Part shown: piece after piece, positions 47,784-64,000 of the stretch
Layout of the letters: the number at the start of each line of letters is the position of its first letter
Position numbering within the stretch: position 1 is the first letter of the stretch
Assembly (NCBI RefSeq): GCF_012910705.2
Contig: NZ_WTVG02000038.1
Span: forward strand, 248,001 to 312,000
Length of the DNA stretch: 64,000 nt
From: Aromatoleum anaerobium
GTDB taxonomy: Bacteria > Pseudomonadota > Gammaproteobacteria > Burkholderiales > Rhodocyclaceae
Reading direction: 5' to 3'
Notes under the pieces: generated by a model
Told to the model about the DNA's origin: nothing
Database searches by the model: none
The model's input: only the letters and a program-made list of their open reading frames with translations
Translations under genes and position numbers: made by a program

Positions 47784-50285
47784 TCAGGCGACCGCACACA
47801 GCGGGCGCGAATCGTTCGGCCCGACTTCGGCGAGCGCTTCGCGCAGGCCGAAATCGTACGGGAAATCGTCGACGCGAATGACCTTGTCGCGCAGCACGTT
47901 GCGCCGCTCGACGAGCGCGAATTCGGCGTCGCTGATGACGCCGGCTTCGAGCGCGCGGCGCCACACCGCATCGACGCCGCCGCCGACGATCAGGCCCGGG
48001 TCGAAGCGCCCGTGCCGGCGCGCCTCTTTCAGCTTCGCCTCGACCGGCTCGGCTGCGATCGTCGCGGCGAGCGCGGCTTCGAGCGCCGCGGCCGGCTCGT
48101 CGAGGTCGTCCGGCAGATAGACGTCGGCAGTCAGCCGGTCGCGCGTCGGCGACGGCTCGATCAGCAGCTTCGCCACTTCGTGGCCGAGCGCGTCGGACGG
48201 CACGACGTACGGCCGTCCGAGCGGGAACACGACGAGCCGGCGCAGCACCGTCGCGAAGAACCTGTTCGGGAAGTTCGCGATGACGCCTTCGAACGCGTTC
48301 TGCGCGCGGAACATGCAGTCCCAGATCGCCCAGTGCATCAGCGGCGCGTCCGCCGCCTGCCGCCCTTCGGCTTCGAAGCGCTTGAGCACCGCCGACGCGA
48401 GATACATCAGCGACAGGATGTCGCCGAGCCGCGCGGAGAGCTTTTCCTTGCGCTTCAACGCGCCGCCCATCGTCCCCATCGAGATGTCGGCGAGGAACGC
48501 GAACGCCGCCGAGAAGCGCGTCAGCTGCTGGTAGTAGCGCCGCGTCTCGGGCGCGATCTCATCGGCGTCACCGCCCGGCACAGCGACGAAATGCGAGCCG
48601 GTGAATCCCATCACCAATGCCCGCACCGCGGACGACAGGGTGTAGCCGATGTGCCCCCAGAACGCGCGGTCGAACGTCGCCAGATCGTTGTCCTGCGCGG
48701 CGTGCATCTCGTCGAGCACGAACGGATGGCAGCGGATCGCGCCCTGGCCGAACAGGATCAGGCTGCGTGTCAGGATGTTCGCGCCTTCGACGGTGATGCC
48801 GATCGGGATCTGCTGGTACGCGCGGCCGAGGAAATTCTGCGGCCCGAGGCAGATGCCCTTGCCGCCGATGACGTCCATCCCGTCATTGACCGTCTGGCGC
48901 GCGCGCTCGGTGACGTGGTACTTGACGATCGCCGACACCACCGACGGCTTCTCGCCGAGGTCGATCGCGCCGGCCGTCATGATGCGTGCCGCATCGGACA
49001 GGTAGGTGTTCGCGCCGATGCGCGTCAGCGCCTCCTCGACGCCCTCGAAGCGGCCGATCGCGGTCCTGAACTGGTGCCGCACGCGGGCATACGCGCCAAC
49101 GGCGCGCGCGGTCATTTTCTGCATGCCGGTGTTCGAACCCGGCAGCGAGATCGCACGCCCCGCCGCGAGGCACTCCATCAGCATCCGCCAGCCCTGGCCC
49201 GCCATCTTCGGCCCGCCGATGATGAAATCGAGCGGCATGAACACGTCGCGCCCGCGCACCGGCCCGTTCATCCACACCGCGTTGAGCGGCAGGTGGCGCC
49301 GGCCGACGTCGACGCCGGGGTGTTCGGCCGGCACCAGCGCACAGGTGATGCCGAGGTCCGGCTCGCCGCCGAGCAGGCCGTCCGGGTCGTACAGGCGGAA
49401 CGCCAGCCCGAACACCGTGCAGACCGGCGCGAGCGTGATGTAGCGCTTGTCGAACGTCACGCGCATGCCGGGCACTTCGCGCCCCTGCCACATGCCTTTG
49501 CAGACCACTCCGGAATCCGGGATGGATGCCGCGTCCGACCCGGCCCACGGGCTCGTCAGCGCGAACGCCGGGATGTCGACGCCGGCTGCGAGCCGCGGCA
49601 GGAAATGCGCCTTCTGCTCCGGCGTGCCGTAATGCAGCAGCAGCTCGGCAGGCCCGAGCGAGTTCGGCACCATCACCGTGACCGCCGGCGCCGACGAGCG
49701 CGTCGACAGCTTCGTCACGACCTGCGAATGCGCGAACGCCGAGAAGCCTTTCCCGCCGTATTCCTTCGGGATGATCATGCCGAGAAAGCCGCGCTCCCTG
49801 ATGTAGCGCCACACTTCGGGCGACAGGTCCTGGCGCTGCGTCGCGGCCCAGTCGTCGGTGAGCCGGCACAGCTCGCTCGTCTCGTTATCGAGGAACGCGC
49901 GCTCCTCGGCGGTGAGGGTCGGCCACGGATACGCAAGCAGCTTCGCCCAGTCCGGCCTGCCCGCAAACAGCTCGCCTTCCCACCACACGGTCCCCGCTTC
50001 GAGCGCATCCTTCTCGGTTTGCGACATCGACGGCAGCGCGCCGCGGAAAGCCTTGAAGATGCGCGCGGTGACGAGTTCCCGGCGCAGCGGCCGGATCAGG
50101 AACAGGCCGATCGGGAGGCTGTACAGGACGAGGGCGACGATCGTCGCATTCGACGACCAACCGAGCACCGCCGCGAACAGCACGAGCCACAGAAAGCCGA
50201 CCGCCGCCCAGACGGGAAACGCGGCGCGCCGGTACGCAAGCGCGCCGGCAATCGGCACGAGCAATACGATGAGCAACCAGACCAT
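47784..50285 (-). CDS. fadE: Acyl-CoA dehydrogenase, FadE-type
   Basis: An 833-residue flavoprotein catalysing the first step of beta-oxidation. Unlike small acyl-CoA dehydrogenases it has N-terminal membrane helices (about residues 1-18, 25-45 and 48-66) and a long C-terminal extension, as in E. coli FadE (814 residues). The core has GFLGMIIPKEYGGKGFSAFAHS, ALTSPWAGSDA, and DVIGGKGICLGPQNFLGRAY. The ATG at 50285 has a perfect AGGAGG. First gene of the cluster, so the operon promoter should lie in 50286-50569. Confidence 0.95.
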   Translation of the reverse strand: MVWLLIVLLVPIAGALAYRRAAFPVWAAVGFLWLVLFAAVLGWSSNATIVALVLYSLPIGLFLIRPLRRELVTARIFKAFRGALPSMSQTEKDALEAGTVWWEGELFAGRPDWAKLLAYPWPTLTAEERAFLDNETSELCRLTDDWAATQRQDLSPEVWRYIRERGFLGMIIPKEYGGKGFSAFAHSQVVTKLSTRSSAPAVTVMVPNSLGPAELLLHYGTPEQKAHFLPRLAAGVDIPAFALTSPWAGSDAASIPDSGVVCKGMWQGREVPGMRVTFDKRYITLAPVCTVFGLAFRLYDPDGLLGGEPDLGITCALVPAEHPGVDVGRRHLPLNAVWMNGPVRGRDVFMPLDFIIGGPKMAGQGWRMLMECLAAGRAISLPGSNTGMQKMTARAVGAYARVRHQFRTAIGRFEGVEEALTRIGANTYLSDAARIMTAGAIDLGEKPSVVSAIVKYHVTERARQTVNDGMDVIGGKGICLGPQNFLGRAYQQIPIGITVEGANILTRSLILFGQGAIRCHPFVLDEMHAAQDNDLATFDRAFWGHIGYTLSSAVRALVMGFTGSHFVAVPGGDADEIAPETRRYYQQLTRFSAAFAFLADISMGTMGGALKRKEKLSARLGDILSLMYLASAVLKRFEAEGRQAADAPLMHWAIWDCMFRAQNAFEGVIANFPNRFFATVLRRLVVFPLGRPYVVPSDALGHEVAKLLIEPSPTRDRLTADVYLPDDLDEPAAALEAALAATIAAEPVEAKLKEARRHGRFDPGLIVGGGVDAVWRRALEAGVISDAEFALVERRNVLRDKVIRVDDFPYDFGLREALAEVGPNDSRPLCAVA

Positions 50286-50464
50286 GTCGCCTCCTCGATT
50301 ACGCCGACCCGCTCGCGGCATTCCCGCGTCTCCCGCCGGGTCCCGTGGGAGCGCGCGCGGAAGACGGCAGGTTGCACCGGGCAAGTCGTCTGAAGTGTGA
50401 GCGCATGGGCGGAGCGGGGCAAGTCGGGCGACACGCGCGAGACGGTCCGATGCGCTCCGGATCA

Positions 50465-50491
50465 TGAATGCACGCTGAATGCGTTCTTCAG
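50465..50491. promoter_or_regulatory. Repeat and palindrome in the fadE upstream region
   Basis: TGAATGC occurs twice (50465-50471 and 50476-50482), 11 bp apart, one helical turn. The second copy is part of CTGAA-TGCGTTC-TTCAG (50475-50491). It lies between the divergent fadE and an exported-protein gene. It could be a binding site for a fatty-acid regulator; the regulator is not known. Confidence 0.3.
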
Positions 50492-50569
50492 TCGCCGTTC
50501 AGGCGACCTCATCGAAAATCGCCTCATGGTCGAGATCCGGCCATCAATGAACCATACCGGGAGACAATC

Positions 50570-51085
50570 ATGGCACGCACGAAACTTCATCTTTCCGCCT
50601 TTGCGATCGCGGCCGGGCTGGCGATTTTCGGGCCGATTCCCGTGTCGTCGGCCGCGGAAACCGCGACGGCCAGCACGACCGTCACTGCGCTGCAAACCGA
50701 GCAAGGCACGGCGAACGCGATCGACGCAGACAGAATGGCGACCGATCCGGCACTGCGGCAGGGAATGACGACGATCCGAAAGATCGTCGAACCGTATATC
50801 CCGCTGATTCGATCCGGCCAATTCGGCGACGGACATTACAACGCCGTCGGCACTGCGGTGACACACCAGATCGAATACATTGTCGGCAATTGCAAGCTCG
50901 ATCCGGAAGCGGACCGCGTGTTGCACGAACTCCTCGTCCAATTGCAGGATGGCGCAGACCGATTCGGCGGCAAGACGGCGGGCGCCGCGCGAGGTGAAGG
51001 CGTCGCGCCGATTGTCAGCGCGTTGAATGATTACGGCCGCTATTTCGATCATCCGGGTTGGCAGCCGGTGGGCGAGATTCAATAA
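50570..51085 (+). CDS. Exported protein of unknown function (DnrO-like)
   Basis: A 171-residue protein with a signal peptide (LSAFAIAAGLAIFGPIPVSSA). The mature helical domain contains ALRQGMTTIRKIVEPYIPLI, YNAVGTAVTHQIEYIVGNCKL and DRVLHELLVQLQDG. This pattern resembles small periplasmic proteins annotated DnrO-like, whose function is not settled. The ATG at 50570 follows GGGAGACAATC; the open frame extends upstream without signal-peptide sense. Divergent from fadE. Confidence 0.7.
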   Translation: MARTKLHLSAFAIAAGLAIFGPIPVSSAAETATASTTVTALQTEQGTANAIDADRMATDPALRQGMTTIRKIVEPYIPLIRSGQFGDGHYNAVGTAVTHQIEYIVGNCKLDPEADRVLHELLVQLQDGADRFGGKTAGAARGEGVAPIVSALNDYGRYFDHPGWQPVGEIQ

Positions 51086-51203
51086 CGGGCCGAAGGCCAG
51101 AGCCCGAATCGGCTCCGGCAATTTCTGCGGGCGCAAAGCTGTGGTTTGACTGCGGGATTCGGCGCCCCCAGAATTAAAGCCTCTTCACAGAAATGCCCTG
51201 AAC

Positions 51204-51839
51204 ATGCTGCCCTTCGACGTGCTGCTGGCCTTCCTTGCCGTGTCGGTCGCGATCACCCTCGCACCTGGCCCGGACAACCTGATGGTGCTTGGCCAGAGCC
51301 TCGCGCGCGGGCGCATCGCCGGCTTCGGCATCGCCGTCGGCTGCGCGCTCGGCTGCTTCACGCATACGCTGTGGGCGACGCTCGGCGTCAGCGCCTTGCT
51401 GCTCGCGTCGCCGAACGCGTTCTTCGCGCTCAAGCTCGCCGGCGCGGCGTATCTGTTCTGGCTCGGCGTGCAGGCGCTCAGGAGCGGCGGGATCGCGGCG
51501 GCCGAACGCGGTGAGGCGGCGGCGCTGCCGTGGCGCCGCTATGTCGCGCGAGGCTTCATCGCGAACGCTGTGAACCCGAAAGTCGCCCTGTTCTTCCTCG
51601 CTTTCCTGCCGCAGTTCGCGCGCCCCGAGGCCGGCCCGGCGTCGGCGCAGATGCTGGTGCTCGGTGCGGTGTTCGCGGCGCAGACGGTCGTCGTGTTCGG
51701 CGCGATCGCGTTCGCCGCCGGCGGCATCGGGCGCCTGCTCGCGCGCCGGCCGCGGCTCGGGCCGTGGCTCGACCGGGTCACCGGCATGATCTTCATCGGG
51801 CTCGCCGCGAACCTGCTGCTCGGCGGACGACGGGGGTGA
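51204..51839 (+). CDS. LysE/RhtB-family amino-acid exporter
   Basis: A 211-residue inner-membrane protein with about six hydrophobic segments. The family signature ITLAPGPDNLMVLGQSLARGRIAGFGIAVG lies at residues 17-46, and GFIANAVNPKVALFFLAFLPQF at about 117-138. Substrate (amino acid or derivative) is unknown. It begins 118 nt after the exported-protein gene and ends 29 nt before the ABC exporter gene. Confidence 0.93.
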   Translation: MLPFDVLLAFLAVSVAITLAPGPDNLMVLGQSLARGRIAGFGIAVGCALGCFTHTLWATLGVSALLLASPNAFFALKLAGAAYLFWLGVQALRSGGIAAAERGEAAALPWRRYVARGFIANAVNPKVALFFLAFLPQFARPEAGPASAQMLVLGAVFAAQTVVVFGAIAFAAGGIGRLLARRPRLGPWLDRVTGMIFIGLAANLLLGGRRG

Positions 51840-51868
51840 CGGCGCGGCGCGTGCAGTAGAATCGGGCC

Positions 51869-53683
51869 ATGAGACGCGCCCCCGCCACCGCCCTGCCCGG
51901 CCCCGAACCGACCCATCGCCACGACTGGCAGACCCTCAAGAGCCTCGTTCCGTACATCTGGGCCTACAAGGGCCGGGTGCTGTTCGCATTGAGCTGCCTG
52001 ATCGCGGCGAAAGGCGCGAACGTCACCGTCCCGATCATCTTCAAGCACCTTGTCGACACGCTGTCGCTGACGACCCAGCAGGCCTTCATCGTCGTGCCGG
52101 CGGCGCTGCTGCTCGCGTACGGCGCGCTGCGCTTTTCGAGCTCGCTGTTCACCGAACTGCGCGAACTCGTGTTCGCGCGCGTCACGCAGGAGGCCGTTCG
52201 CGAAATCGCGTTGCGCGTATTCCGCCACCTGCACGCGCTGTCGCTGCGCTTCCACCTCGAGCGCCAGACCGGGGGACTCACGCGCGACATCGAGCGCGGC
52301 ACGCGTTCGATCGGGTCGCTGATCAGCTACACGCTGTACTCGATCCTGCCGACGCTGATCGAGATCGGCCTCGTGATCGGCATCCTGCTCGCGCAGTACG
52401 ACGCGGTGTTCGCGATCATCACGCTCACGACGCTGGTGATCTACATCACGTTCACGGTGAAGGTCACGAACTGGCGCACCGCATTGCGGCGCCAGGCCAA
52501 CGAGCTCGATTCGGCCGCAAGCGCGCGGGCGATCGACAGCTTGCTGAACTTCGAGACGGTGAAGTATTTCAACAACGAGGAATTCGAGGCGCGCCGCTAC
52601 GACGAGCAGATGCAGAAATGGGCCAACGCGCAGGTCAAGAACCAGCTCTCGCTGTCGGCGCTGAACGTCGGTCAGGCGGCGATCATCGCCGTCGGCGTGA
52701 CGTTGATGATGTGGCAGGCCGCGACCCGCGTTGCCAGCGGCGCGATGACGATCGGCGACATCGTGCTCGTCAACGCCTTCCTGATCCAGTTGTACATCCC
52801 GCTGAACTTCCTCGGCGTCATCTACCGCGAACTGCGCCAGGCGCTGACCGACATCGAACGCATGTTCGGGCTGATGCACGAGCACCGCGAGATCGCCGAC
52901 GCGCCCGACGCGCTGATGCTGCCACCGGGTCCGGCGACGGTGCGCTTCGAGAACGTCAGCTTCGCGTACGACCCGAAGCGGCCGATCCTGCACGGCGTCG
53001 ATTTCGAGATTCCGGCCGGGTGCACGCTCGCGGTCGTCGGCCATTCGGGGTCGGGCAAGTCGACGCTCGCGCGCCTGCTGTATCGCTTCTACGATGTGCA
53101 GGGCGGCGCGATCCGCGTCAATGGCCACGACCTGCGCGCGCTCACGCAGGCGAGCCTGCGCGCGGCGATCGGCATCGTGCCGCAGGACACGGTGCTGTTC
53201 AACGACACGCTGTTCTACAACATCCAGTACGGCCGCCCGGAAGCGAGCTGCGAGGACGTCGAGGCCGCGGCGCGCGCCGCGCAGCTCACCGACTTCATCG
53301 CGCGGCTGCCGGACGGATTCGAGACGCGCGTCGGCGAACGCGGCCTGAAGCTCTCCGGCGGCGAGAAGCAGCGCGTCGCGATCGCCCGCGCGCTGCTGAA
53401 GAACCCGGCGATCCTGATCTTCGACGAAGCAACCTCGGCGCTCGACTCGAAGACCGAAAAGGCGATCCAGGCGCAGATGGAGCTTGCCGCCGCAGGCCGC
53501 ACCGCGCTCGTCATCGCGCACCGGCTATCGACGGTGATGAACGCGGACGAGATCATCGTGCTCGACCAGGGCCGCATCGTCGAACGCGGCACGCACGCCG
53601 CACTGCTCGCGCGCGACGGCGACTACGCGCGCATGTGGGCGCTGCAGCAGCAGGAAGGCGAGGAAGCCGCGAGCGCGGCATGA
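51869..53683 (+). CDS. ABC exporter of the Atm1/HMT type (fused permease and ATPase)
   Basis: A 604-residue half-transporter, homodimeric, exporting glutathione- or metal-related compounds in relatives. Six transmembrane helices occupy about residues 30-320. TM-domain stretches LRFSSSLFTELRELVFARV and SLLNFETVKYFNNE are Atm1 hallmarks. The ATPase domain has Walker A GHSGSGKST, signature LSGGEKQR, Walker B ILIFDEATSALD, and AHRLST. It may be cotranscribed with the upstream LysE-type gene. Confidence 0.94.
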   Translation: MRRAPATALPGPEPTHRHDWQTLKSLVPYIWAYKGRVLFALSCLIAAKGANVTVPIIFKHLVDTLSLTTQQAFIVVPAALLLAYGALRFSSSLFTELRELVFARVTQEAVREIALRVFRHLHALSLRFHLERQTGGLTRDIERGTRSIGSLISYTLYSILPTLIEIGLVIGILLAQYDAVFAIITLTTLVIYITFTVKVTNWRTALRRQANELDSAASARAIDSLLNFETVKYFNNEEFEARRYDEQMQKWANAQVKNQLSLSALNVGQAAIIAVGVTLMMWQAATRVASGAMTIGDIVLVNAFLIQLYIPLNFLGVIYRELRQALTDIERMFGLMHEHREIADAPDALMLPPGPATVRFENVSFAYDPKRPILHGVDFEIPAGCTLAVVGHSGSGKSTLARLLYRFYDVQGGAIRVNGHDLRALTQASLRAAIGIVPQDTVLFNDTLFYNIQYGRPEASCEDVEAAARAAQLTDFIARLPDGFETRVGERGLKLSGGEKQRVAIARALLKNPAILIFDEATSALDSKTEKAIQAQMELAAAGRTALVIAHRLSTVMNADEIIVLDQGRIVERGTHAALLARDGDYARMWALQQQEGEEAASAA

Positions 53684-53808
53684 CCGCGAAATTGCATGTA
53701 CTTGACCATGCATGCATTCGTCTTGCGCACCGGTTTGCACTGGCTTGACCAGCATTTGTCGGGGTCGCCGTACAAAGTACAGCGGCCGTGCACCGCAACT
53801 GCCGCCCG

Positions 53809-54129
53809 TCAGTCCTCGAACAGCTCAGAATGCGTACCCGCACGCACGAAGATGATGACATCGCCATTCAGCCGGTAGATCAGCAGAAAGTCGCCGCCGA
53901 TGTGACATTCCCGGTGATCAGCCCAGTTCCCCTTCAGCGGATGATCGAGCCACTCGGGGCCCAGAGGCGAGTCATTGGCGATGAGCAGCAGCATCGCCTC
54001 CTTCAGCCGCTTGAGGTCGTAACGGCCCGAGCGGGAAAGGCGGTCCCAGTCCTTGAGGAAGGTCTTCGTGTAGTCGCACGCCTTGGGCGGCGTGGCCCGC
54101 TTACTGCCGGCGGGCCTTTTCAAGGTCAT
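53809..54129 (-). CDS. RelE/YafQ-family mRNA interferase toxin
   Basis: A 106-residue toxin of the YafQ type: YTKTFLKDWDRLSRSGRYDLKRLKEAM at the start of the fold and PLKGNWADHRECHIGGDFLLIYRLNGDVIIFVRAGTHSELF at the end, with the YafQ-like His/Asp and Phe pattern for ribosome-dependent mRNA cleavage. Overlaps the antitoxin by 29 nt. Left border of the low-GC island. Confidence 0.9.
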   Translation of the reverse strand: MTLKRPAGSKRATPPKACDYTKTFLKDWDRLSRSGRYDLKRLKEAMLLLIANDSPLGPEWLDHPLKGNWADHRECHIGGDFLLIYRLNGDVIIFVRAGTHSELFED

Positions 54130-54379
54130 CGATCAGGGCATCAGCAGAGTCAAAACGCGCAGCGCGGGCCGTCATCATCGCGCGGGCTTCTTCCATCGCC
54201 TCACGGGTTTTCGCGTTCGGAACCTTGAGTTCCAACGGGAAAGCCTGATCGTTGACCACGCGCTTGAGCAGGATACGCACCGCATCGGACACCGACAGCC
54301 CCATGGCTGCCAGAGCCTCGCTGGCTTGCGTCTTGATTTCGTTGTCCACCCGGACATGCAGCATCGTGGAATGGGCCAT
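54101..54379 (-). CDS. RelB/DinJ-family antitoxin
   Basis: A 92-residue antitoxin with a ribbon-helix-helix N-terminus (MLHVRVDNEIKTQASEALAAMGLSVSDAVRILLKRV). The C-terminal helix (DSADALIDDLEKARRQ) should bind the toxin. The ATG at 54379 is preceded by GGAGG; another in-frame ATG at 54400 is possible. Confidence 0.9.
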   Translation of the reverse strand: MAHSTMLHVRVDNEIKTQASEALAAMGLSVSDAVRILLKRVVNDQAFPLELKVPNAKTREAMEEARAMMTARAARFDSADALIDDLEKARRQ

Positions 54380-54458
54380 AGCCGGATCCTCCATTTCCAC
54401 GCATTCTGTATCTCTGATGCGATACAGTCAAGTGACCAGACGGACGAACGGTAGGTCG

Positions 54459-54568: not shown

Positions 54569-54960
54569 GTGCAAGTCACCGCCAAGAAGGAGCAGACGCG
54601 GCGCAACCGCTTCCTCGCCGAGATCGCGGCGGTGACGCCGTGGGTAAGGTTGGTGGCCGAGATCGAGCCGTTCTACCCGAAGGTGACGGCGCGCGGCCAA
54701 CCGCCGATTGGGGTGGCGCGGATGCTGCGAATGTATGTCGCCCAGCAGTGGTTTGGATTGTCGGACGGAGGGATCCAGGACGCGATCTACGACAGCTAGG
54801 CGACCCGCGCCTTCGTCGGCATCGATCTGCCCGCGAGACCGCGCCCGACGCGCCCCCCTGTTGAAGTCTCGCCGCCTGCTGGAGACGCACGAGCTCACGC
54901 GCAAGATCTTCGAGGCGATCAAAGCGCACTGGGCGATGCGGGCCAACAGGGCGTCGAGAA
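54569..54960 (+). pseudogene. Decayed IS5-family transposase fragment
   Basis: From the GTG at 54569 the frame reads an IS5-type N-terminus (FLAEIAAVTPWVRLVAEIEP, MLRMYVAQQWFGLSD, IQDAIYDS). It then meets an in-frame TAG at 54797, continues ATRAFVGIDL, and shifts frame in a C-rich stretch to LLKSRRLLETHELTRKIFEA. The catalytic middle and end of the transposase are missing, so this is a dead relic. It marks past mobile-element activity at the left edge of the island. Confidence 0.85.
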
Positions 54961-55056
54961 GCGCGAAGAACGCTATAATTCCTGCAGGATACTGACCGCG
55001 TTAAGCATTACGCATTTGTCATTTGCGCGAAAACAAACTAAGAAGGGAAAGTTCAT

Positions 55057-55326
55057 ATGTTCAAGCTGGTCACGGCTAGAGTTCTCTTCGCTATTGGCCT
55101 TGTTGCCATAGTCTTCTTGAGTGGTGGCGGTTTCATTCCAGCCTTCATGACGCTGTATGTGATAATCGGGTACATCCTATTCTGCGAGTTTACAATTGCC
55201 CGTTTCATCAAGGCGCGCATAACACCACCGCTAAGCATTTCTCAAAAGAGCCTGGCATTACTGCCTTGGTTTTTCCCTTTTGCAGCTATGGCTCTTGCCG
55301 TCCTAATTCCGTTGCTTCGTGGGTAA
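55057..55326 (+). CDS. Small membrane protein at the head of the defence-like operon
   Basis: An 89-residue hydrophobic protein with three likely transmembrane stretches (about residues 5-24, 26-48 and 66-86) and few charges. I recognise no family. The start at 55057 has a good RBS (AAGAAGGGAAAGTTCAT). Its base composition is clearly less GC-rich than the neighbours outside the island. It ends 53 nt before the HEPN-like gene on the same strand. Confidence 0.65.
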   Translation: MFKLVTARVLFAIGLVAIVFLSGGGFIPAFMTLYVIIGYILFCEFTIARFIKARITPPLSISQKSLALLPWFFPFAAMALAVLIPLLRG

Positions 55327-55379
55327 GCAATCTAAAAAAACAATTTGCTCGGCCGAGTTTCGTCCATCTGAAGCCCATA

Positions 55380-56017
55380 ATGCCTATCTCTAGTCCGGTG
55401 ACCCACGTGGCAGTTGGTGGTGACTTCGCGCGAGTTTTCGACCATGAAGACTACCTAGTCATGTTCAACTCGCTCGACGAGGCCAGCGTCGTATTGCGAG
55501 CTCACCTCATCCTTGAGGAGTTTCTCAACATCTGGTGTGGCCGACTAACGGGGACCGATGACTTGTTCGCTGGAACCTTTGTGCCGTTCAAGACCAAGCT
55601 TGTCGTCGCACGCAACCTGGGCATGGCTTCGGAGTATGTCGAGATTCTGGAGAAGGTTAACGAAGTTCGAAATCGGTACTCGCACAGGCGCAAGTACGTG
55701 CTTGAGCAATCGACACTTGACGGGCTGAAGAACAAGGTCAACGCGCTTCCGTCAGATCCCCCTTGCTTCCGTGCGAGCAGTACCACATCTTCGCGCAGGG
55801 AAAGGATCAATTCGGCCGGCCGCAAGAGGTTCGGCACGAGTGGTCAACCACAGACATCAAGAAGAGAGTCCTCCTGGTCTTCGTCCAGTTGGTCATGAAG
55901 TTCGTTCAGTGGATGCAAGCAGAGTTCACGCGCCGGGGCGTGAACTACAACCTAGTGGTATGGCCAGCTGCTGGTGGCACCGATTTCGCTAAGGAGATTG
56001 AATGGCTTCAGACTTAA
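55380..56017 (+). CDS. HEPN-like helical protein, frameshifted at a C5 run
   Basis: From the ATG at 55380 about 127 residues of helical sequence lead to EVRNRYSHRRKY, which has the RxxxxH pattern of HEPN-superfamily RNases and related helical domains. At a run of five C (55758-55762) the reading frame changes. The second frame continues LLPCEQYHIFAQGKDQFGRP to a TAA at 56017. One more C would give one protein of about 212 residues. The end overlaps the McrB-type start by 16 nt, so the two were evolved as coupled genes. HEPN assignment is inferred from the motif only; an MtlR-like helical protein is an alternative. Confidence 0.6.
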
Positions 56018-58146
56018 CTATAGAGCATGCTTTCGATGTTACCCGCGGAGACAGGTCTGACCAGGAGCCGCCATCGCTCACCTGGTCAGAGGCGGATCTG
56101 CGGAAATATCTTGCCCGAGAATGGGATCAATATGACCCCGCGCATATTAGAGTCATTGGCCGGTTGAGACTGGCCGAAGCGGAATCTTTTGGGTTCCTGG
56201 AGGAGTTGCATCATGCCGAGACAGGTACCAGGCTTGGATCTCCGTTAGGCAATTCCAGAGTGCACCAAAGGGTGTTTGTGCCGGCATCGGAGATCAAGGA
56301 TCTTCAGAACCGCTGGGGAACCACGACCTACACGGTTGCCGAATTGGATCTGTCGCCACTTGAAGAAAGACGGAAGAGAGGCGATCCATTCGCTTGCAAG
56401 GTCCGTCGCGGTACTCTGGTGGCGCTGAGCCATACCCCTGAAAGCTGGGGGATCCGTAGCATTGACTCGGAGTCGGTGCCACTGCTCGTGGAGATAGCTC
56501 GCCAGGCCATTGACGAACGCTTGGCCGATGAGACGGCCGAGGCCAACGAGAAGTTGTGTGCGGCACGTTCGATGCTCGAAGAGGTCGCCTCGGAGAAGCA
56601 GTTGCTTGGCGACGAAGTCGGCCGACTAAAGCGCGAAGTCAGCGAGCGGATGGAGTGCATCGAAGCGCTCAATTCGCAATTCATGCATAGGAGAGATGCG
56701 TTGGAAATAAGGGTCCGGGAACTGGAAGCCCTACTCAGGGAGAGAGGCGAACGCATGATCGCTCTCGATCTCGTTGACAAGGCTGATCTAGAAAAGGTGT
56801 TTCCGCACATAGGGAAGCCCGACGAACGTAAAGGGCATTGTTACGGAGAGGTGATTGCAGGAAACTTCCAGCGGCTGGCTTCGTATATCCAGACGCATCT
56901 TTGGCACAAGGGCATCCGCTATACCCGTGCGCAACTGCTCGACTTCATCACCCTGTTGCGTACCAACGACCTGATCGTGCTCGCGGGGGATTCGGGCTCC
57001 GGAAAGAGTAGCCTGGTGAAGGCTGTTGCCGCCGCTGTTGGGGGGCGCTGCACAATTGTGCCGGTGAAGCCCAACTGGACCGGCTCGGACGACCTGCTGG
57101 GCTACTACAATCCGATTGAGCGACGCTACCACCCGTCACAGTTCTTGCTGGCACTGCTAGAAGCTGCCCGCGAGCCAGAGATTCCCCATTTCATCTGCCT
57201 CGACGAAATGAACCTCGCGCGCGTGGAGTACTACTTCGCCGACTTCCTGAGTTTGCTTGAAACGCGCGGCGAGGCACCGTGGATCCACCTGTACTCAGCG
57301 GCGGAAGAGCGGCAGGCCGTTATCGACAACAAAATCTTCCTGGCACTGGAGGAAGAGGCCAGGAGGCGCGCTGGTTTGCCGGGCGACGCCTCGTTCAACG
57401 ATATCTTGATGCATGACGAGGCCAACCTTGAGCTTCGCAGGTTAGCGGGCTTTCAAGAGGCTGATACTTTACTCAATCACCACGCGAAGATCAGGCGCGC
57501 GATCTCGGGGCTAATCGACATTCCCGCCGGATTCAGGTTTCCATCGAACGTCTGGATTATCGGTGCGATCAACGTGGACGAGACCACGCACTATCTCTCG
57601 CCCAAGATCCTCGACCGTGCGCACATTATGCGGTTCCGCAATCCGGTGTTATTGGACTGGGATGAGGTTGAGGGCGAACTGGAGGAGTTCGAGCTGGATC
57701 TGGGCCTGCCGATGAAGCTGCTGGCCACTGACATCGGTACCCGCGAAGAGTATCCGAACTTCGATCAGGCCGATCCGCATGTAAGACTGTTGGTCGGTTT
57801 GGCGCGGAACTATCTCGACCCGCTGGGCGTCGAGTTCGGCCTGCGGGCAATCCGGCAATCGCTCAACTACATCCGGAGGGGAGAGGAAGCGGAGATTGGA
57901 GCCGTGACTGCTTTGAACAATGTCGTGCTACACAAAATTCTCCCAAAAATTATCCTCGATGTGGAGAAGGTTGCGACCAATGGCCAGAAACGACGGAATG
58001 TGCTGATCAGTCTCAGGGATTCACTGGCACAAGCCTTGGATGGTCTTGACCAGAGCAAGGTGACCGAGTCTGCTGTCGAGGCCTTGGACCAACTGATCGC
58101 GCGCTCAGAAGGCAACAACGGCATCGCCAACTTCTGGGCCCGATGA
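56002..58146 (+). CDS. mcrB: McrB-type AAA+ protein with long coiled coil
   Basis: A 714-residue protein. Residues 1-160 form an uncharacterised N-terminal region. A coiled coil of charged heptads follows at about 165-255. The AAA+ motor has Walker A GDSGSGKSS (329-337), Walker B FICLDEMNLARVEYYFADFLSLLE (397-420), and the sensor motif IIGAINVDETTH (519-530). INVDE stands where McrB GTPases have MNxxD, so nucleotide choice is uncertain. A conserved Arg539 follows in SPKILDRA. It overlaps the HEPN-like gene by 16 nt and the original nuclease start by 4 nt. It would act with the DUF2357 nuclease as an McrBC-like restriction complex. Confidence 0.85.
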   Translation: MASDLTIEHAFDVTRGDRSDQEPPSLTWSEADLRKYLAREWDQYDPAHIRVIGRLRLAEAESFGFLEELHHAETGTRLGSPLGNSRVHQRVFVPASEIKDLQNRWGTTTYTVAELDLSPLEERRKRGDPFACKVRRGTLVALSHTPESWGIRSIDSESVPLLVEIARQAIDERLADETAEANEKLCAARSMLEEVASEKQLLGDEVGRLKREVSERMECIEALNSQFMHRRDALEIRVRELEALLRERGERMIALDLVDKADLEKVFPHIGKPDERKGHCYGEVIAGNFQRLASYIQTHLWHKGIRYTRAQLLDFITLLRTNDLIVLAGDSGSGKSSLVKAVAAAVGGRCTIVPVKPNWTGSDDLLGYYNPIERRYHPSQFLLALLEAAREPEIPHFICLDEMNLARVEYYFADFLSLLETRGEAPWIHLYSAAEERQAVIDNKIFLALEEEARRRAGLPGDASFNDILMHDEANLELRRLAGFQEADTLLNHHAKIRRAISGLIDIPAGFRFPSNVWIIGAINVDETTHYLSPKILDRAHIMRFRNPVLLDWDEVEGELEEFELDLGLPMKLLATDIGTREEYPNFDQADPHVRLLVGLARNYLDPLGVEFGLRAIRQSLNYIRRGEEAEIGAVTALNNVVLHKILPKIILDVEKVATNGQKRRNVLISLRDSLAQALDGLDQSKVTESAVEALDQLIARSEGNNGIANFWAR

Positions 58147-58186
58147 TGTTTCCGGAAATCGAAGCTCGCTACCTGATGATCGACTG
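58143..58186 (+). pseudogene. Original 5' end of the DUF2357 nuclease gene, cut off by the IS
   Basis: ATGATG at 58143-58148 overlaps the mcrB stop (ATGA) and reads MMFPEIEARYLMID, ending at the IS target site. If the IS and one target copy are removed, this joins in frame to WQSEGVARKIEVAPL of the downstream nuclease frame. So the ancestral nuclease started here and was translationally coupled to mcrB. Confidence 0.85.
58177..58186. repeat. Left target-site duplication of the ISAs1 element
   Basis: TGATCGACTG, identical to 59469-59478. In the original gene it encodes part of MIDW. Confidence 0.93.
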
Positions 58187-59468
58187 CAGGGCAATTGCAC
58201 CGTTTTGTCATAACCCGAGGCGCTCATATGGCCAGCCCGAGTAACTCTTCGCGAAAGTCATCCTCCATGCAGGCGAGCAGTCGCTTGGACTTGATGCTGG
58301 CCTTGCGGGTGGTGTTGTGGCGCAGCAGGTTCAGTACGATGTGGCGCAGCACCACGAAGTTGTTGGCCGCATAGCCTCGGCGCACACGGGACTGATCATC
58401 GTTGAACTGCACATCGAGCGACCAGTGAAGCTGATTTTCGACCGCCCAATGGCTGCGCACGGCCTGCGCAATTCTGGCGGCATCTGCGGGCAGGGAACTG
58501 ATGTAGTAATGGCGCTCGACGCTGGTCTTGCCGTCGACGGTGCGTTCGCGCTCGACGAGCGCAAACGATTGCAGCCCGGCCCACTGCTCGGACTTGTACA
58601 ACTGGCTGACCGCATCATAGGCCCAGCAGCGGCGCACCTCCACACGGCCGTGGCCCTTGGTTTGTTCTTCGAAATGCGAAGCCGGCGCGATCTTTTCCGC
58701 CACGCCGGCCAGGGTGAGCAGAATCGAGTCGGTCAGCGTGGGGTGGTTGTCTTTGACGCACAACACGTAGTCTGCGCCACGACTACGGATGGTGCGGGCA
58801 ATCGCTGCCTGGGTGCCCATCGCATCGATCGTGACGATGGTGCCTTCGAGCGCCAGCATGGCGAGCAACTCGGGAATCGCTGTTATCTCGTTGCTCTTCT
58901 GATCGGTGGCGCGCTGCCCCAGCACCAGACCCATCCCGGCGGCAAAGGCGCTGACCATGTGCAACGGCCCCGACGTATCCTTGCCGCCACTGCGCCGACT
59001 GGTCTTGCCATCGATGGCCACCACGCTGTCCGGCGCCAGCGCCGGCACCAGCACGCCCACCCAGCGCAGAAAGGCCGCCTCGAAGGCCGCGGGATCGATC
59101 ATCGCGAGCACCCGGCAGAACGTGTCATGCGAGGGCACGCCCGCCTTGAGCTTCAGGAACTTGCGCAGCCAGGCCAGGTTGGACTTGCCCCACAGCGCCA
59201 CATCCACGAAATCGTTCGCCCCGCACAGCACCGCGCACACCGCCACCGTCAGCAACTCGGACAGATCGTGCCTGGCCTGCCGCTTGCTGCGCGGGTCGGG
59301 TACCGACACGAACACTTCGCTCACGGGCATCAACTGGCCTGTCTTCATGGGAGTCCCAAAAAGACAGTAAGCTACACAAAATATGACGTTGTGAACAGGG
59401 GCTCGCTAAGCGCATGATCGTAAACGGTTTACCTGTATCGGTTATGCATTTTAGGTGCGATTGCCCTG
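58187..59468 (-). mobile_element. ISAs1-family insertion sequence, complete, 1,282 bp
   Basis: Ends are CAGGGCAATTGCACC on the left and its near inverse GGTGCGATTGCCCTG on the right (14 of 15 identical). The direct repeat TGATCGACTG flanks both sides (58177-58186 and 59469-59478), a 10-bp target duplication typical of the family. One intact transposase is encoded on the minus strand. The element splits the nuclease gene of the McrBC-like operon. Intact ends, duplication and ORF point to a recent insertion. Confidence 0.95.
58224..59348 (-). CDS. ISAs1-family transposase
   Basis: A 374-residue DDE transposase. The N-terminal part (PDPRSKRQARHDLSELLTVA, CGANDFVDVALWG) is the associated domain typical of ISAs1/H-repeat proteins. 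Catalytic residues are Asp113 (VVAIDGKTSRRS), Asp175 (VTIDAMGTQ) and Glu304 (HWAVENQLHWSLDV). The frame is intact, so it may be active. It reads against the interrupted nuclease operon. A start at the Met of MPVSEVF (residue 7) is also plausible. Confidence 0.95.
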   Translation of the reverse strand: MKTGQLMPVSEVFVSVPDPRSKRQARHDLSELLTVAVCAVLCGANDFVDVALWGKSNLAWLRKFLKLKAGVPSHDTFCRVLAMIDPAAFEAAFLRWVGVLVPALAPDSVVAIDGKTSRRSGGKDTSGPLHMVSAFAAGMGLVLGQRATDQKSNEITAIPELLAMLALEGTIVTIDAMGTQAAIARTIRSRGADYVLCVKDNHPTLTDSILLTLAGVAEKIAPASHFEEQTKGHGRVEVRRCWAYDAVSQLYKSEQWAGLQSFALVERERTVDGKTSVERHYYISSLPADAARIAQAVRSHWAVENQLHWSLDVQFNDDQSRVRRGYAANNFVVLRHIVLNLLRHNTTRKASIKSKRLLACMEDDFREELLGLAI

Positions 59469-61981
59469 TGATCGACTGGCAGTCGGAAGGCGTCGCCAGG
59501 AAAATCGAGGTTGCACCGCTTCCGCTGGAGATTGAGTCGTACGCAGAAGGTGGGTTTGTTGTTGAAAGCACGATCTTCAACGACTTTCATCCGTGGCTCG
59601 GTATTCGCCTCGGGACTGAGTTCGAAGAAATTGTGCCTGTGTTCATGACGGCATCGGGGCAGGAAACCCCTATGTTGCGGGTTGCAGATCCGCGTGGCGA
59701 TGGATTCTGGTGGTTGCGAAATGATGGTTGGGATCATGCCGACAAGCGTCACCTGAGCGAGCTTCAACGGAGCTCAGGCATCTACAGCATCAGGATAGGC
59801 GATGTAATGCTGCGGGTTGAAAATCGCCTGTCGACCTTCGGTCGCGCCGATATCCAGGCGTATGTCGACGACTTTCGGGGCGATCTTCTCTGGATGATCA
59901 TGAACGATGCCGCCGGCGCCACAGCAACTGGTAAAGGTGCCGGGGTTGGGGCTGGGACCGAGCTCGCTGACGCGCTGGAGGAGTTGCATGCTGCGTCGCA
60001 AAGGGTCCTGGCATCTCCCGCTGTCACCATTCGGGAGGGGCAGGCGCCTCGGCCGATCGCGAAGGTGCGCTACAACATGGCGAGTTTTCGCGAGTATGCG
60101 CGTAATCCAGCAGCCCGCCAGCTGACGGGCAGGGTCTTCGACGAGTCGGCGAACACAGCCGAGAATCGCTACCTACGACACATGTTGGCGGTTTCCGTGA
60201 AAGTGGCCGATGCGTATGTTTCGGCTGCGTCGCTGCAGGCGGGCTTTCTTGACAGGCTGGCTTCACAGGAGATTGAGCGCGCCCGACGCAATCGTGAAAT
60301 GGAGATGCGCCCTGTTGATCCCGACGTGTTCGATCAGCAGACGGAAGAGATTAAACGGAAGCTGGATGCGCTTGCGGACTTCGAAGAGCTGCCGGGCTGT
60401 GCGTTTGGTCGACTTGGCCAGATTCCGATTCGCATTGGGCACAGATATTATGAGAATTTTTCTTTTTATTATTCTCGACAGAATGGCAGCGGGAGCAACG
60501 CAGATGATGAGGTCGACTACAGAGTTGTTGTGCTGCCTGAAGGTTTTTTCGAGCTAATTCTGGGGAGTCTTCACTTCTGCCGAAACTTTACAATCATAGG
60601 TGGTGTGGACTCCCGCGTGCAGGAGACGGCAAAAAAGAAGCGGTTTCGAAAGCTCACATTCACCTCGGTACATGAAGTTGTACCGCAAACGGATGTGCTT
60701 GAGAAAAGAACGGAGAAGAGACGGGGCTTGGAAAAGAGCAACTGGCTTGTTCGTCTCTCTGGTAATGAACGGCGCGAGCTTAAGCGCGAAGCAGACGCAG
60801 GTGAGCGACGAGTTGAGCGATCTCTCAAAAGAAGGAAATCTATTTCTTCGTCAATTGATGAAATAGGATGGGGAGCGCGAAGGTTGGCGGAAACCGACGC
60901 TGGACTCGACCGCTTGGGAGTTTCAAGCAACTCGAGCTTTCCGACCGGAATGCGATTTGTCTCCAACCCCGATTACGCAGCCTGTTTGTCAGCATTCAAT
61001 AAGTTTTGCGAGCTCTTTGAGCGCGGCGGACTGGATCTGTCGAAACTGGAAGAGATCAGCAGCATCGGGATTCTTCATGCGAGTGATATATATGAAAAAT
61101 GGTGCCTGCTGAAGATCTTCATGCTGTTGACGCATGACTTCAAGTTCGAGCCCGAATGTGGCTGGGAAGAAAAGCTGGTCGCGGCCTCGCTCGCTCGCAC
61201 TAGCAACGCCAGGTTCGAGTTTTCGCGCGATGACCTGGAAATGAAGGTAGTCCTCACCTGCCAGGCAGACATGCCAACGGGGCGCCGGCCCGATTTTGTT
61301 CTGGAGGTAATCTCTTCGGGAAAGGAGCGGTCCAGGCGTTTCGATCAGAAAAGTGGGCGGCTCGGCGGCATCGTGATGGACGCCAAGTTCAGGAGCACTT
61401 GGAAGAACGGTGGCCTACGCAGCATGCTGGACGAGTTGGTTCTGGCGAAGGGCTATGACAAGGCTGTGGAAAGCGGAAGGGTCTTTATCCTGCAACCCTG
61501 TGAGTCCACAGTACATCCCGCGACTTCACCGCTCGAATGGGGGGCACATTGTGACTACGGTAGTACGCAATCCCATCGTCAGGGCTGGATACAGACGGGG
61601 GTGGCATCTTCCGGCGCGCACGCGACCCAGCACCTCAGACGCCTGCTGACGATAGTATTCCAGAATGCATTCACTGTACCGCAGGAAGGGCGCGATGATT
61701 ATGGCAACATCACCTGGACATCCCACAGCTTCTGCTTTGGTTGTGGCGAACGCCATGTTTCTTCCGCAGTCCAAGCAAAGTATACAAAAAGTGGGGCACC
61801 GAGTTGGCTTCTCGATTGCAAACACTGCGGCGTCAGGACTGAAAGAACCCACTGTTACAACTGTGCGGCACCGCTGTTTAAGAACGGTACGATGTGGACG
61901 TACCACAACACCGTCGCCGATCAAGTGACTAATGTGATTTGCCCTGGCTGTGGCTCCTATTTTGATGCAGAGTTCAATTGA
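59414..61981 (+). CDS. DUF2357/PD-(D/E)XK nuclease with C-terminal zinc ribbons (McrC-like), 5' end replaced by IS sequence
   Basis: An 855-residue frame. Residues 1-18 come from the IS end; the real protein resumes in the target site (VIDWQSEG). The DUF2357 region runs to about 300. A central basic stretch (about 405-475) is rich in Lys, Arg and Glu. The nuclease domain follows, with Glu561 in DIYEKWCLLKI, Asp627 in RRPDFVLEV, and Asp656-x-Lys658 in IVMDAKFRS, the expected PD-(D/E)XK core. Four CxxC pairs (774/777, 802/805, 814/817, 843/846) at the C-terminus probably bind two zinc ions. No ribosome-binding site is strong before the ATG at 59414, the ATG at 59444 or the GTG at 59468, so expression may be low. 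Confidence 0.88.
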   Translation: MIVNGLPVSVMHFRCDCPVIDWQSEGVARKIEVAPLPLEIESYAEGGFVVESTIFNDFHPWLGIRLGTEFEEIVPVFMTASGQETPMLRVADPRGDGFWWLRNDGWDHADKRHLSELQRSSGIYSIRIGDVMLRVENRLSTFGRADIQAYVDDFRGDLLWMIMNDAAGATATGKGAGVGAGTELADALEELHAASQRVLASPAVTIREGQAPRPIAKVRYNMASFREYARNPAARQLTGRVFDESANTAENRYLRHMLAVSVKVADAYVSAASLQAGFLDRLASQEIERARRNREMEMRPVDPDVFDQQTEEIKRKLDALADFEELPGCAFGRLGQIPIRIGHRYYENFSFYYSRQNGSGSNADDEVDYRVVVLPEGFFELILGSLHFCRNFTIIGGVDSRVQETAKKKRFRKLTFTSVHEVVPQTDVLEKRTEKRRGLEKSNWLVRLSGNERRELKREADAGERRVERSLKRRKSISSSIDEIGWGARRLAETDAGLDRLGVSSNSSFPTGMRFVSNPDYAACLSAFNKFCELFERGGLDLSKLEEISSIGILHASDIYEKWCLLKIFMLLTHDFKFEPECGWEEKLVAASLARTSNARFEFSRDDLEMKVVLTCQADMPTGRRPDFVLEVISSGKERSRRFDQKSGRLGGIVMDAKFRSTWKNGGLRSMLDELVLAKGYDKAVESGRVFILQPCESTVHPATSPLEWGAHCDYGSTQSHRQGWIQTGVASSGAHATQHLRRLLTIVFQNAFTVPQEGRDDYGNITWTSHSFCFGCGERHVSSAVQAKYTKSGAPSWLLDCKHCGVRTERTHCYNCAAPLFKNGTMWTYHNTVADQVTNVICPGCGSYFDAEFN
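59469..59478. repeat. Right target-site duplication of the ISAs1 element
   Basis: TGATCGACTG, identical to 58177-58186. It follows the right inverted repeat directly. Confidence 0.93.
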
Positions 61982-62457
61982 GCGAATGAGCGAGGTAGGT
62001 CATTTGCATGCCATTGCGTTCCCCGAGGAAGCCAATGGTTGCAATTGGCCGAAGCCGTGTAAAAACTCGCCGGTGCGCCGAGAATCAGACATCCCCAGCG
62101 GCAAGCCAATGAATTTGAACGCGACAAATCAGTTCAACTGAGCTTCACCAAAAGGGGTCGAGTCCTCAATGACCGGTCGGGCCGACGAGCCGCAGCACAG
62201 TGCTCGTCGGCAGACGGCGACTCTCCCCAGAAAGCTGCCGTAGAACCCGCGAGCGGTCGATCGTCCGGAGTGGGTCGTCTGACACATCCGGGCAGTCCCC
62301 CTCCAGCGATCATCACCTTTGCACAGCCTGATCGCATCGAATGCCAGTGACTGACCAGTAGCAATGCAAAATGGTGATCACGTGCCGCGCAATTTCGCGG
62401 CATGACGATACTGTTCCGCTAAACTCGCGCGTCGCCCACCACTACAAGTCCCGGGTA
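61982..62457. other. Gene-poor right edge of the island
   Basis: 476 bases between the nuclease stop and the Kef-type gene. I see no confident gene: two short frames (61950-62141 plus, 62134-62403 minus) lack recognisable protein pattern. The only structure noted is a 7-bp inverted repeat, TGCCGCG / CGCGGCA with a 6-nt loop, at about 62383-62402. Base composition shifts back toward high GC here, so the island border probably lies in this stretch. No tRNA or direct repeat was found. Confidence 0.5.
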
Positions 62458-64000
62458 ATGGACGCCCACGCCGCTCCCGCCTTCCTGCGCGAAATCATCC
62501 TGTTCCTCGTCCTGGCCGGAGTACTGATCCCGCTGCTGCAGCGCAGCCGCATCAATCCGGTGCTCGGCTTCCTCGCCGTCGGCATGGTCGTCGGGCCGTT
62601 CGGCCTCGGGCGGTTCACCGCGGCGACGCCGTGGCTCGGGTACCTGACGTTCGGGCGCACCGAGGACGTCGAGGTCTTCGCCGAGTTCGGCGTGATCTTC
62701 CTGATGTTCATGATCGGGCTCGAGATGTCGGTCGACCGGCTGTGGGCGATGCGGCGGCTCGTGTTCGGGCTCGGCAGCCTGCAGGTCGGCATCACTGCGC
62801 TTGTCATCGGCGCCACCGCGTACGCGTTCGGCAACGGCCTGGAAGCGTCGGTCGTGCTCGGCGGCGTGCTCGGCTTCTCGTCGACCGCGGTCGTCATGCA
62901 GTTGCTGTCGCAGCGGCGCGAACTGGGCACGCCTCTGGGCCAGGCGACGTTCTCGGTGCTGCTGCTGCAGGATCTCGCGGTCGTGCCGCTGCTGGTGCTG
63001 GTGACGATTCTCGCGCAGGACGCGGGCGGCAACTTCGCCGGGCTGCTCGGCCTCGCCGCGGCGAAAGGGGCCGCGACGATCGCGCTGATCTATGTCGTCG
63101 GCCGGCGCGTCGTGCGCCCGCTGTTCCACCAGATCGCCGCAAACCGACAGGCGGAATCCTTCATGGCGCTGACGCTGCTGACGACGCTCGGCGTCGCGCT
63201 GCTGACCCGCGCGGCGGGGCTGTCGATGGAACTCGGCGCGCTGCTCGCCGGCCTCCTGATCGCCGAGACCGAGTTCCGCCACGAAGTCGAAGTCACGATC
63301 GAGCCGTTCAAGGGCCTGCTGATGGGGGTTTTTTTCATGTCGGTCGGCATGGGCATCGACGTCACGGCGATTCTCGCCGAACCGCTGCTGCTGCCGCTCT
63401 CGGTCGTCGGCCTGATGGCGCTGAAGGCCCTGATCGTGCTCGCCCTGTTCAGGATCTTCGGCCTGACGTGGGGACGGGCGGCCGAAGGCGGCATCATGCT
63501 GTGCCAGGGCGGGGAATTCGCGTTCATCGTCATCGGCATGGCCCTGGGGCTGGGGATCATCGCGCACCCGATCGGCCACTTCATGCTGCTGGTCGTCAGC
63601 CTGTCGATGCTCGTCACCCCGCCGCTGTCGCTGCTCGGGCGCAAGCTCGGCGACGCGATCGATGCACGGCTCGGCAGGAACTCGACGATCGCCGCGGAGA
63701 ACCTCGTCGAACTCAGCGGCCATGTCGTCATCGCCGGCTACGGCCGGGTCGGACAGATGATCGGCGAACTGCTCGACGAACAGGGCATCCCGCACGTCGC
63801 GATCGAAACCGATGCCAGGCTCGTCGCCCGCCAGCGCGCGAAAGGCGCACCGGTGTATTTCGGCGACGCGAGCCGGCCCGAGCTGCTGCGCAAGTTCCAC
63901 CTCGAACGCGCCGTCGCGGTGGTGCTGACGATGGACCACACGGCGGCGGCCGTGCATGCGGTCAAGGGCATACGGGCGACGTCGCCGAACATCCGCATCG
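62458..64000 (+). CDS. Kef-type monovalent cation:proton antiporter with RCK/TrkA-N domain, 3' end outside the window
   Basis: 514 codons of a CPA2-family transporter. About 12 transmembrane helices occupy residues 10-390, with typical stretches AVGMVVGPFGLG, EFGVIFLMFMIGLEMS, VLGFSSTAVVMQLL, LLLQDLAVVPLL and LGALLAGLLIAET. The cytoplasmic Rossmann domain starts at about 420 with HVVIAGYGRVGQMIGELL and the acidic end of the second strand (IETDARLV), as in RCK domains that bind NAD(H) or AMP. The ATG at 62458 follows the island. Likely K+/H+ efflux, but ion choice cannot be told. Confidence 0.93.
   Translation, partial: MDAHAAPAFLREIILFLVLAGVLIPLLQRSRINPVLGFLAVGMVVGPFGLGRFTAATPWLGYLTFGRTEDVEVFAEFGVIFLMFMIGLEMSVDRLWAMRRLVFGLGSLQVGITALVIGATAYAFGNGLEASVVLGGVLGFSSTAVVMQLLSQRRELGTPLGQATFSVLLLQDLAVVPLLVLVTILAQDAGGNFAGLLGLAAAKGAATIALIYVVGRRVVRPLFHQIAANRQAESFMALTLLTTLGVALLTRAAGLSMELGALLAGLLIAETEFRHEVEVTIEPFKGLLMGVFFMSVGMGIDVTAILAEPLLLPLSVVGLMALKALIVLALFRIFGLTWGRAAEGGIMLCQGGEFAFIVIGMALGLGIIAHPIGHFMLLVVSLSMLVTPPLSLLGRKLGDAIDARLGRNSTIAAENLVELSGHVVIAGYGRVGQMIGELLDEQGIPHVAIETDARLVARQRAKGAPVYFGDASRPELLRKFHLERAVAVVLTMDHTAAAVHAVKGIRATSPNIRI

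Follow-up and report, generated by a model that had tools for sequence, protein, structure and literature searches.

A two-gene McrBC-like pair and a separate mobile HEPN-like gene at one locus of Aromatoleum anaerobium

The locus analyzed here occupies positions 55057–61981 of a 64,000-nucleotide stretch of the Aromatoleum anaerobium genome (contig NZ_WTVG02000038.1, positions 248,001 to 312,000), which we call the window and whose numbering is used throughout; the host genome comprises 4.56 Mb in 40 contigs. A preliminary description, made from the letters of the window alone, had presented the locus as a four-gene defence operon encoding a membrane protein, a HEPN-like protein, a coiled-coil McrB and a DUF2357 nuclease. 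The genes do lie on one strand, as the plus-strand open reading frames (ORFs) 55057–55326, 56002–58146 and 59414–61981 confirm. The locus is, however, a two-gene pair of a described, putatively anti-virus kind together with a separate mobile HEPN-like gene, and not a four-gene system. Its features are as follows:

55057–55326, + strand: hydrophobic membrane ORF of 89 amino acids (aa), outside the conserved pair (ORF list, hydropathy)
55380–55766, + strand: N-terminal piece of the HEPN-like gene with RNRYSH, its frame lost near the end (identity to relatives L118 and L126; phrog_5483; family profile positions 3–130)
55763–56017, + strand: C-terminal piece of the HEPN-like gene in another frame, overlapping mcrB by 16 nt (tblastn; family profile positions 127–190)
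56002–58146, + strand: McrB-type NTPase, CnuB-like, PADLOC PDC-M26A (PDLC04547, E = 2.8e-276; predicted model; invariant motifs)
58143–58186, + strand: 5' stub that precedes the insertion in the nuclease gene, with one copy of a 10-bp duplication
58187–59468, − strand: insertion sequence (IS) of the ISAs1 family, 1282 bp, with a transposase at 58224–59348 on the minus strand (NF033564, E = 7.2e-122), inverted ends and TGATCGACTG on both sides
59414–61981, + strand: nuclease ORF, CnuC-like, PADLOC PDC-M26B (PDLC04549, E = 0; predicted model), its first 18 codons inside the IS end

The McrB-type protein matches its PADLOC profile almost end to end, and the mcrB frame is open over its entire length. 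Its predicted model, with a mean predicted local distance difference test score (pLDDT) of 83, contains a beta domain (residues 49–134), a single 94-residue helix (161–254) and an AAA+ domain. Four predicted helices (433–457, 465–470, 472–482 and 490–506) lie between Walker B and the motif GAINVDE, which has NxD where NxxD is expected and which had been noticed before as INVDE in place of MNxxD. Walker B and NxD are 121 residues apart. The protein was aligned with 48 sequences chosen by hand from 66 long McrB ORFs, and in all 49 the Walker A and B residues and N-x-D (N524, D526) are invariant.

The nuclease is matched by PDC-M26B with 1386 bits over profile positions 12–844 of 845, while matches to Pfam DUF2357 (E = 0.056) and PDDEXK_7 (E = 0.0043) are weak and below the cut-off. 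In the predicted model (mean pLDDT 86) the order of elements is a beta-sandwich, a helical bundle with an insert, a PD-(D/E)xK domain and zinc ribbons; the insert comprises a coiled coil (249–321), a beta barrel (333–424) and a second coiled coil (428–500). In the alignment with 48 of 61 nuclease ORFs, again chosen by hand, all 49 sequences share P626, D627, D656 and K658. The PD-(D/E)XK nuclease with four CxxC (at residues 774, 802, 814 and 843) was correctly recognized in the preliminary description, but its tail does not distinguish it, as between 42 and 49 of the 49 nucleases retain each of the eight cysteines.

According to Bell et al. (2024; PMC11090510), NxD marks the CoCoNuT clade, the helical insert distinguishes Type I-A, and a Type I-A system consists of the McrB and McrC homologues only. 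Type I-A CoCoNuTs are a branch of McrBC-type (Type IV) restriction, and the core of the locus, which PADLOC lists as PDC-M26, is very probably such a two-gene system, with a separate mobile HEPN-like gene in front and with the pair probably impaired. The earlier placement among McrBC-like, coiled-coil systems of the CoCoNuT class agrees with the PDC-M26A and PDC-M26B matches and with the Type I-A features. The name PDC-M26 was not found in the literature searched.

To this the neighbourhood of related loci adds the extent of the conserved unit. A scan of 84,980 species genomes led to 259 confirmed McrB loci, and neighbours were counted in the best 80 of them, which include relatives of 66–77% protein identity; in 67 of these loci the upstream DNA extends over 2 kb or more. 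A nuclease relative is found by profile in 76 loci (it is absent in L084, L085, L112 and L114, of which L084 ends with McrB) and by clustering in 77, and 74 loci carry a plus-strand ORF of more than 200 aa that starts at most 120 bp from the McrB stop. The most frequent of the other gene clusters is present in 12 of the 80, and the next three in 7 each. A relative of the HEPN-like or the membrane protein was detected by tblastn at E = 0.01 in none of the 80 loci. As tblastn with the HEPN piece as a single sequence misses six of the nine HEPN loci that profiles find (L158–L166), the comparison was repeated with profiles, and at E = 1 neither the HEPN profile nor a phmmer search with the membrane protein gave a match in the 80 loci, while 16 of 16 known HEPN loci were recovered as a control. 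The preliminary description had itself named the neighbours of McrB homologues as the test of its four-gene proposal, and within these 80 loci its distinct system does not survive this test.

The mcrB and nuclease genes formerly overlapped by 4 nt (ATGA, 58143–58146), as had been proposed; what has displaced the nuclease frame, left unnamed at the time, is the ISAs1 element that now follows. The nuclease ORF of the relative L008 likewise begins at a 4-nt overlap with McrB, and the same overlap is counted in 10 of the 80 related loci under the first-start rule of our script. The element sits approximately 14 codons into the nuclease gene, is flanked by the 10-bp target duplication, and ends in CAGGGCAATTGCACC and GGTGCGATTGCCCTG. 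The genome holds three copies including this one, identical over exactly 1282 bp, and the insertion is therefore probably recent. Judged from its position within the first nuclease codons, the element has probably impaired the pair in this genome. The nuclease ORF at 59414 begins inside the IS and reads on in frame, and only the first 11 positions of the M26B profile remain unmatched, so that some nuclease product is possible. Beyond the IS the ORF is open and retains the catalytic residues.

The HEPN-like gene had been taken for one open frame, but it is split over two, its first part lying in the frame of 55266–55898 and its last part in that of 55763–56017. The N-terminal piece shares 51% identity with part of a protein from a Xanthomonas campestris plasmid (L118, 204 aa) and 56% with part of a viral-contig protein (L126, 208 aa), and by tblastn the C-terminal piece matches the C-terminal parts of the same two proteins (L126, E = 4e-13; L118, E = 6e-9). 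Both relatives are single ORFs that match both pieces, and a profile built from three close members matches the locus in two overlapping pieces in different frames; on these grounds the gene is regarded as frame-split. The ORF that overlaps mcrB is consequently a C-terminal fragment only, and the reported 16-nt overlap stands as a matter of coordinates (56002–56017) and not as an overlap of two complete genes. The likely start of the HEPN-like gene, taken from the alignment with L118, is 55380, where a clear Shine-Dalgarno sequence was not seen.

The protein is assigned to HEPN by its homology to HepS. The family profile matches HepS (PDB 9oij) with E = 3.5e-12 and with the R-x4-H motif aligned, and this motif is present in the N-terminal piece as RNRYSH, the RxxxxH reported before. 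The same piece matches phrog_5483 (E = 1e-12) and no Pfam family; for two relatives there are weak, sub-threshold Pfam matches (DUF4145, 0.047; HEPN pEK499_p136, 0.03). No paper on HepS turned up in our literature search. Relatives occur as gene 63 of phage phi80, in Salmonella prophages and a Salmonella phage, on a plasmid with phage genes and on 2.2-kb plasmids. A Gifsy-1 gene that may be related is predicted to hold a HEPN domain (PMC9879122). The family alignment finds 22 viral loci, 20 of which give nearly the same match of 30–31%, whereas a search of viral contigs with the single protein found none. In a viral contig (L126:78-6354, the same contig as L173), hsdS and hsdR of a Type I restriction-modification (R-M) operon enclose an intact HepS-family gene for a 208-aa protein; this protein has a weak PADLOC match to an 'Effector 2TM' model (E = 3.1e-4). 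Another relative (L174) lies at a contig end beside an ORF that is presumably integrase-like. Two HepS-family relatives of one genome (L158 and L165) lie in arrays made up of small ORFs, among which a 181-aa ORF is repeated; the arrangement resembles, and may be, that of integron cassettes. The family is scarce, being present in 2/349, 4/369, 5/398 and 1/150 genomes sampled, in which this genome is counted each time and the samples may overlap. From its homologues, the HEPN-like gene is best described as a mobile HepS-family gene in its own right, which does not belong to the conserved pair.

The membrane ORF has hydrophobic 19-residue windows that start at residues 1–35 and 65–71. The three helices given to it earlier are plausible from this profile. 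It matched no family in Pfam, PADLOC or NCBIfam at E = 1 and no plasmid record at E = 0.01. Among 250 genomes of the order, matches occur in two, its own and one that is weak (E = 1.7e-4).

A hint as to how the HEPN-like gene came to its place arises from nucleotide similarity. From 56045–56070 onward the DNA is 78–79% identical to three Pseudomonas mcrB genes, and upstream of this there is no similarity, which fits a recombination point at the start of mcrB. If recombination took place there, the overlap between the HEPN fragment and mcrB would be a by-product and no proof of coupling, although a Shine-Dalgarno-like AAGGAG precedes mcrB within the HEPN ORF.

Several observations weigh against parts of this interpretation. 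The spacing between Walker B and NxD is not uniform among the 79 McrB ORFs of relatives: it is 121 residues in 57, 117–122 in 10 and 83 in 1, and in the remaining 11, mostly distant McrB ORFs, the pattern did not read it (10 without a motif match, 1 misread). A Foldseek search of the PDB with the McrB-type model places dynein, MCM and NorQ above McrB, whose structure 6hz4 follows at rank 26 (E = 8.5e-5; phmmer of the protein to 6hz4 gives E = 0.02). With the nuclease model there is no Foldseek match in the PDB at E ≤ 0.001, SSB proteins, which concern the OB-like insert, appearing weakly from 0.05 and McrC (6ut7) at 0.069. Owing to these weak results the domain names of both proteins follow the order of elements, and the filing under Type I-A follows features and not phylogeny. 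The nuclease ORF fused to the IS stays open and might still be translated, and the apparent split of the HEPN-like gene may have arisen from a mistake in the assembly. Finally, part of the DNA upstream of the relatives does not code for protein; close similarity would hardly be expected in such DNA anyway, and its absence supports a junction weakly.

It is quite possible, though short of probable, that the whole locus is a relic, a defence island decaying after IS activity with its function gone. Besides the ISAs1 insertion in the nuclease and the split frame of the HEPN-like gene, this would account for a broken transposase at about 54569–54995, directly upstream of the membrane ORF (DUF772, E = 4.2e-6), which contains a stop and frame changes and which we take to be of IS5 type. 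The fully open mcrB, the open remainder of the nuclease ORF with its catalytic residues, and the identity of the IS copies, which points to a recent event, argue in the other direction.

A further explanation, which we consider unlikely, is that a HEPN module of the HepS family repeatedly settles next to or within restriction operons, where it serves as a back-up that shuts the cell down when restriction fails. The PrrC anticodon nuclease acts likewise next to its Type I enzyme. The intact relative between hsdS and hsdR would be one such case and the gene directly preceding the CoCoNuT pair, with its R-x4-H motif kept, a second; yet these two cases are the only ones seen, the other relatives examined stand alone as prophage, phage, plasmid or cassette-like genes, and the copy in the window is broken. 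Slightly more doubtful still is the general form of this idea, namely that HepS-family HEPN proteins are movable suicide switches that plug into unrelated restriction operons and fire when these are inhibited or overwhelmed.

That the membrane, HEPN-like, McrB-type and nuclease genes form one system is highly improbable: the common strand, the close spacing, the HEPN fragment overlapping mcrB and the AAGGAG inside the HEPN ORF speak for it, but the HEPN-like gene is frame-split, neither it nor the membrane gene has a relative in any of the 80 McrB loci, and none of the 39 HEPN loci, many of them redundant and several only 2–6 kb long, is matched by the McrB and nuclease profiles (E = 0.001) or the membrane protein (E = 1).

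The genes upstream of the related McrB genes differ between loci. When 20 upstream neighbours, picked by hand, were compared to Pfam, eight were defence-related (BrxL, three Type I S subunits, one M subunit, GmrSD, PIN and a YhcG nuclease), four had no match, and the rest were transposases or unrelated. A candidate for a second HEPN family before McrB, a 268-aa ORF with WRNPAMH located 141 bp upstream in a Sphingomonadales metagenome-assembled genome (L051:6907-7713), was rejected for want of a useful database match: there was nothing in Pfam (E = 0.01), PADLOC (0.1) or NCBIfam (0.01) and one PDB match at 0.89. Downstream of the pair one cluster is present in 12 of the 80 loci (L101:12272-14404 and 11 others), and its L101 example holds FVDESG, a motif which we assume to be that of DUF3800 proteins.

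The system is rare near the host lineage. Among 60 relatives of the host, one genome of the same genus has a clear McrB-system relative (42% identity) and two more give marginal matches (E = 5e-4 and 8e-4), and 18 out of 274 genomes of the class match at E = 0.001, this one included and most in part only. In viral contigs the pair was not found by single-protein search, while an alignment search gave seven partial relatives. McrB relatives were also seen on 173 plasmid records, 129 of them from Klebsiella; the 40 that were listed (H1–H40) are 34–42% identical.

As to its setting, the locus differs in composition from its surroundings. The G+C content of 1-kb windows is 0.51–0.63 at 55000–61999, compared to 0.64–0.69 at 50000–53999 and 62000–63999, which is as expected for acquired DNA. 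Just beyond the island, at 53809–54400 on the minus strand, lies a toxin-antitoxin pair of YafQ-RelB type (YafQ, E = 8.9e-30; RelB, E = 4.1e-16).

By analogy with McrBC, the McrB-type protein of the Type I-A CoCoNuT pair would form a nucleotide-driven ring, and its putative OB-like domain and coiled coil may sense nucleic acid. Bell et al. (PMC11090510) predict RNA, and perhaps DNA, as the CoCoNuT target. The DUF2357 stalk of the nuclease could then enter the ring and stimulate hydrolysis, as in McrBC, and the PD-(D/E)xK domain would cut, whereby the pair would act in defence; the HEPN-like gene may have come to lie before mcrB by recombination. The analysis removes a four-gene system that looks like an operon, yet in none of the 80 relatives checked is the pair joined by the HEPN-like or the membrane gene. 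It also suggests, from shared features, a link between the PADLOC candidate PDC-M26 and the Type I-A CoCoNuT class, and it points to related intact pairs in environmental bacteria, such as those of Comamonas testosteroni (L042) and Pseudomonas mandelii (L037). The HEPN gene within the R-M operon is a small lead on how genes of the HepS type combine with restriction.

Compared to Escherichia coli McrBC, the pair has the same combination of an AAA+ motor and a DUF2357/PD-(D/E)xK-type partner. It differs by NxD instead of NxxD, by approximately 70 extra residues from Walker B to this motif (our own count from the alignment), and by a putative coiled coil and OB-like domain instead of the DNA-base-binding domain (PMC11090510). 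The HEPN-bearing CoCoNuTs described by Bell et al. are Types II and III-A, with HEPN on CnuE beside the CnuH helicase. This assignment was rejected: the ORF list around the pair shows no CnuH helicase or CnuE, the McrC-type nuclease keeps its catalytic residues, and the HEPN-like protein represents a type that stands alone, with about 180–210 aa. The HEPN-like family has the domain and the R-x4-H motif in common with HepS (PDB 9oij, 9oik), whereas the HepS chains have 212 and 228 residues and the gene here is split. Nothing in the core sets it apart from PADLOC PDC-M26, as adjacent M26A and M26B are matched near full length, except that the IS now separates them and leaves the first 11 M26B positions unmatched. 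While the copy in the window differs from a Type I-A CoCoNuT, as described by Bell et al., by the IS in its nuclease gene and the foreign HEPN-like gene in front, it shares the NxD motif, the helical insert after Walker B and the beta N-domain with a putative coiled coil. It further shares the CnuC-like make-up (a beta-sandwich, a bundle of DUF2357 type into which a coiled coil and an OB-like element are inserted, a PD-(D/E)xK domain and zinc ribbons) and an operon of CnuB and CnuC only, with the nuclease in 76 of the 80 loci and no other cluster in more than 12.

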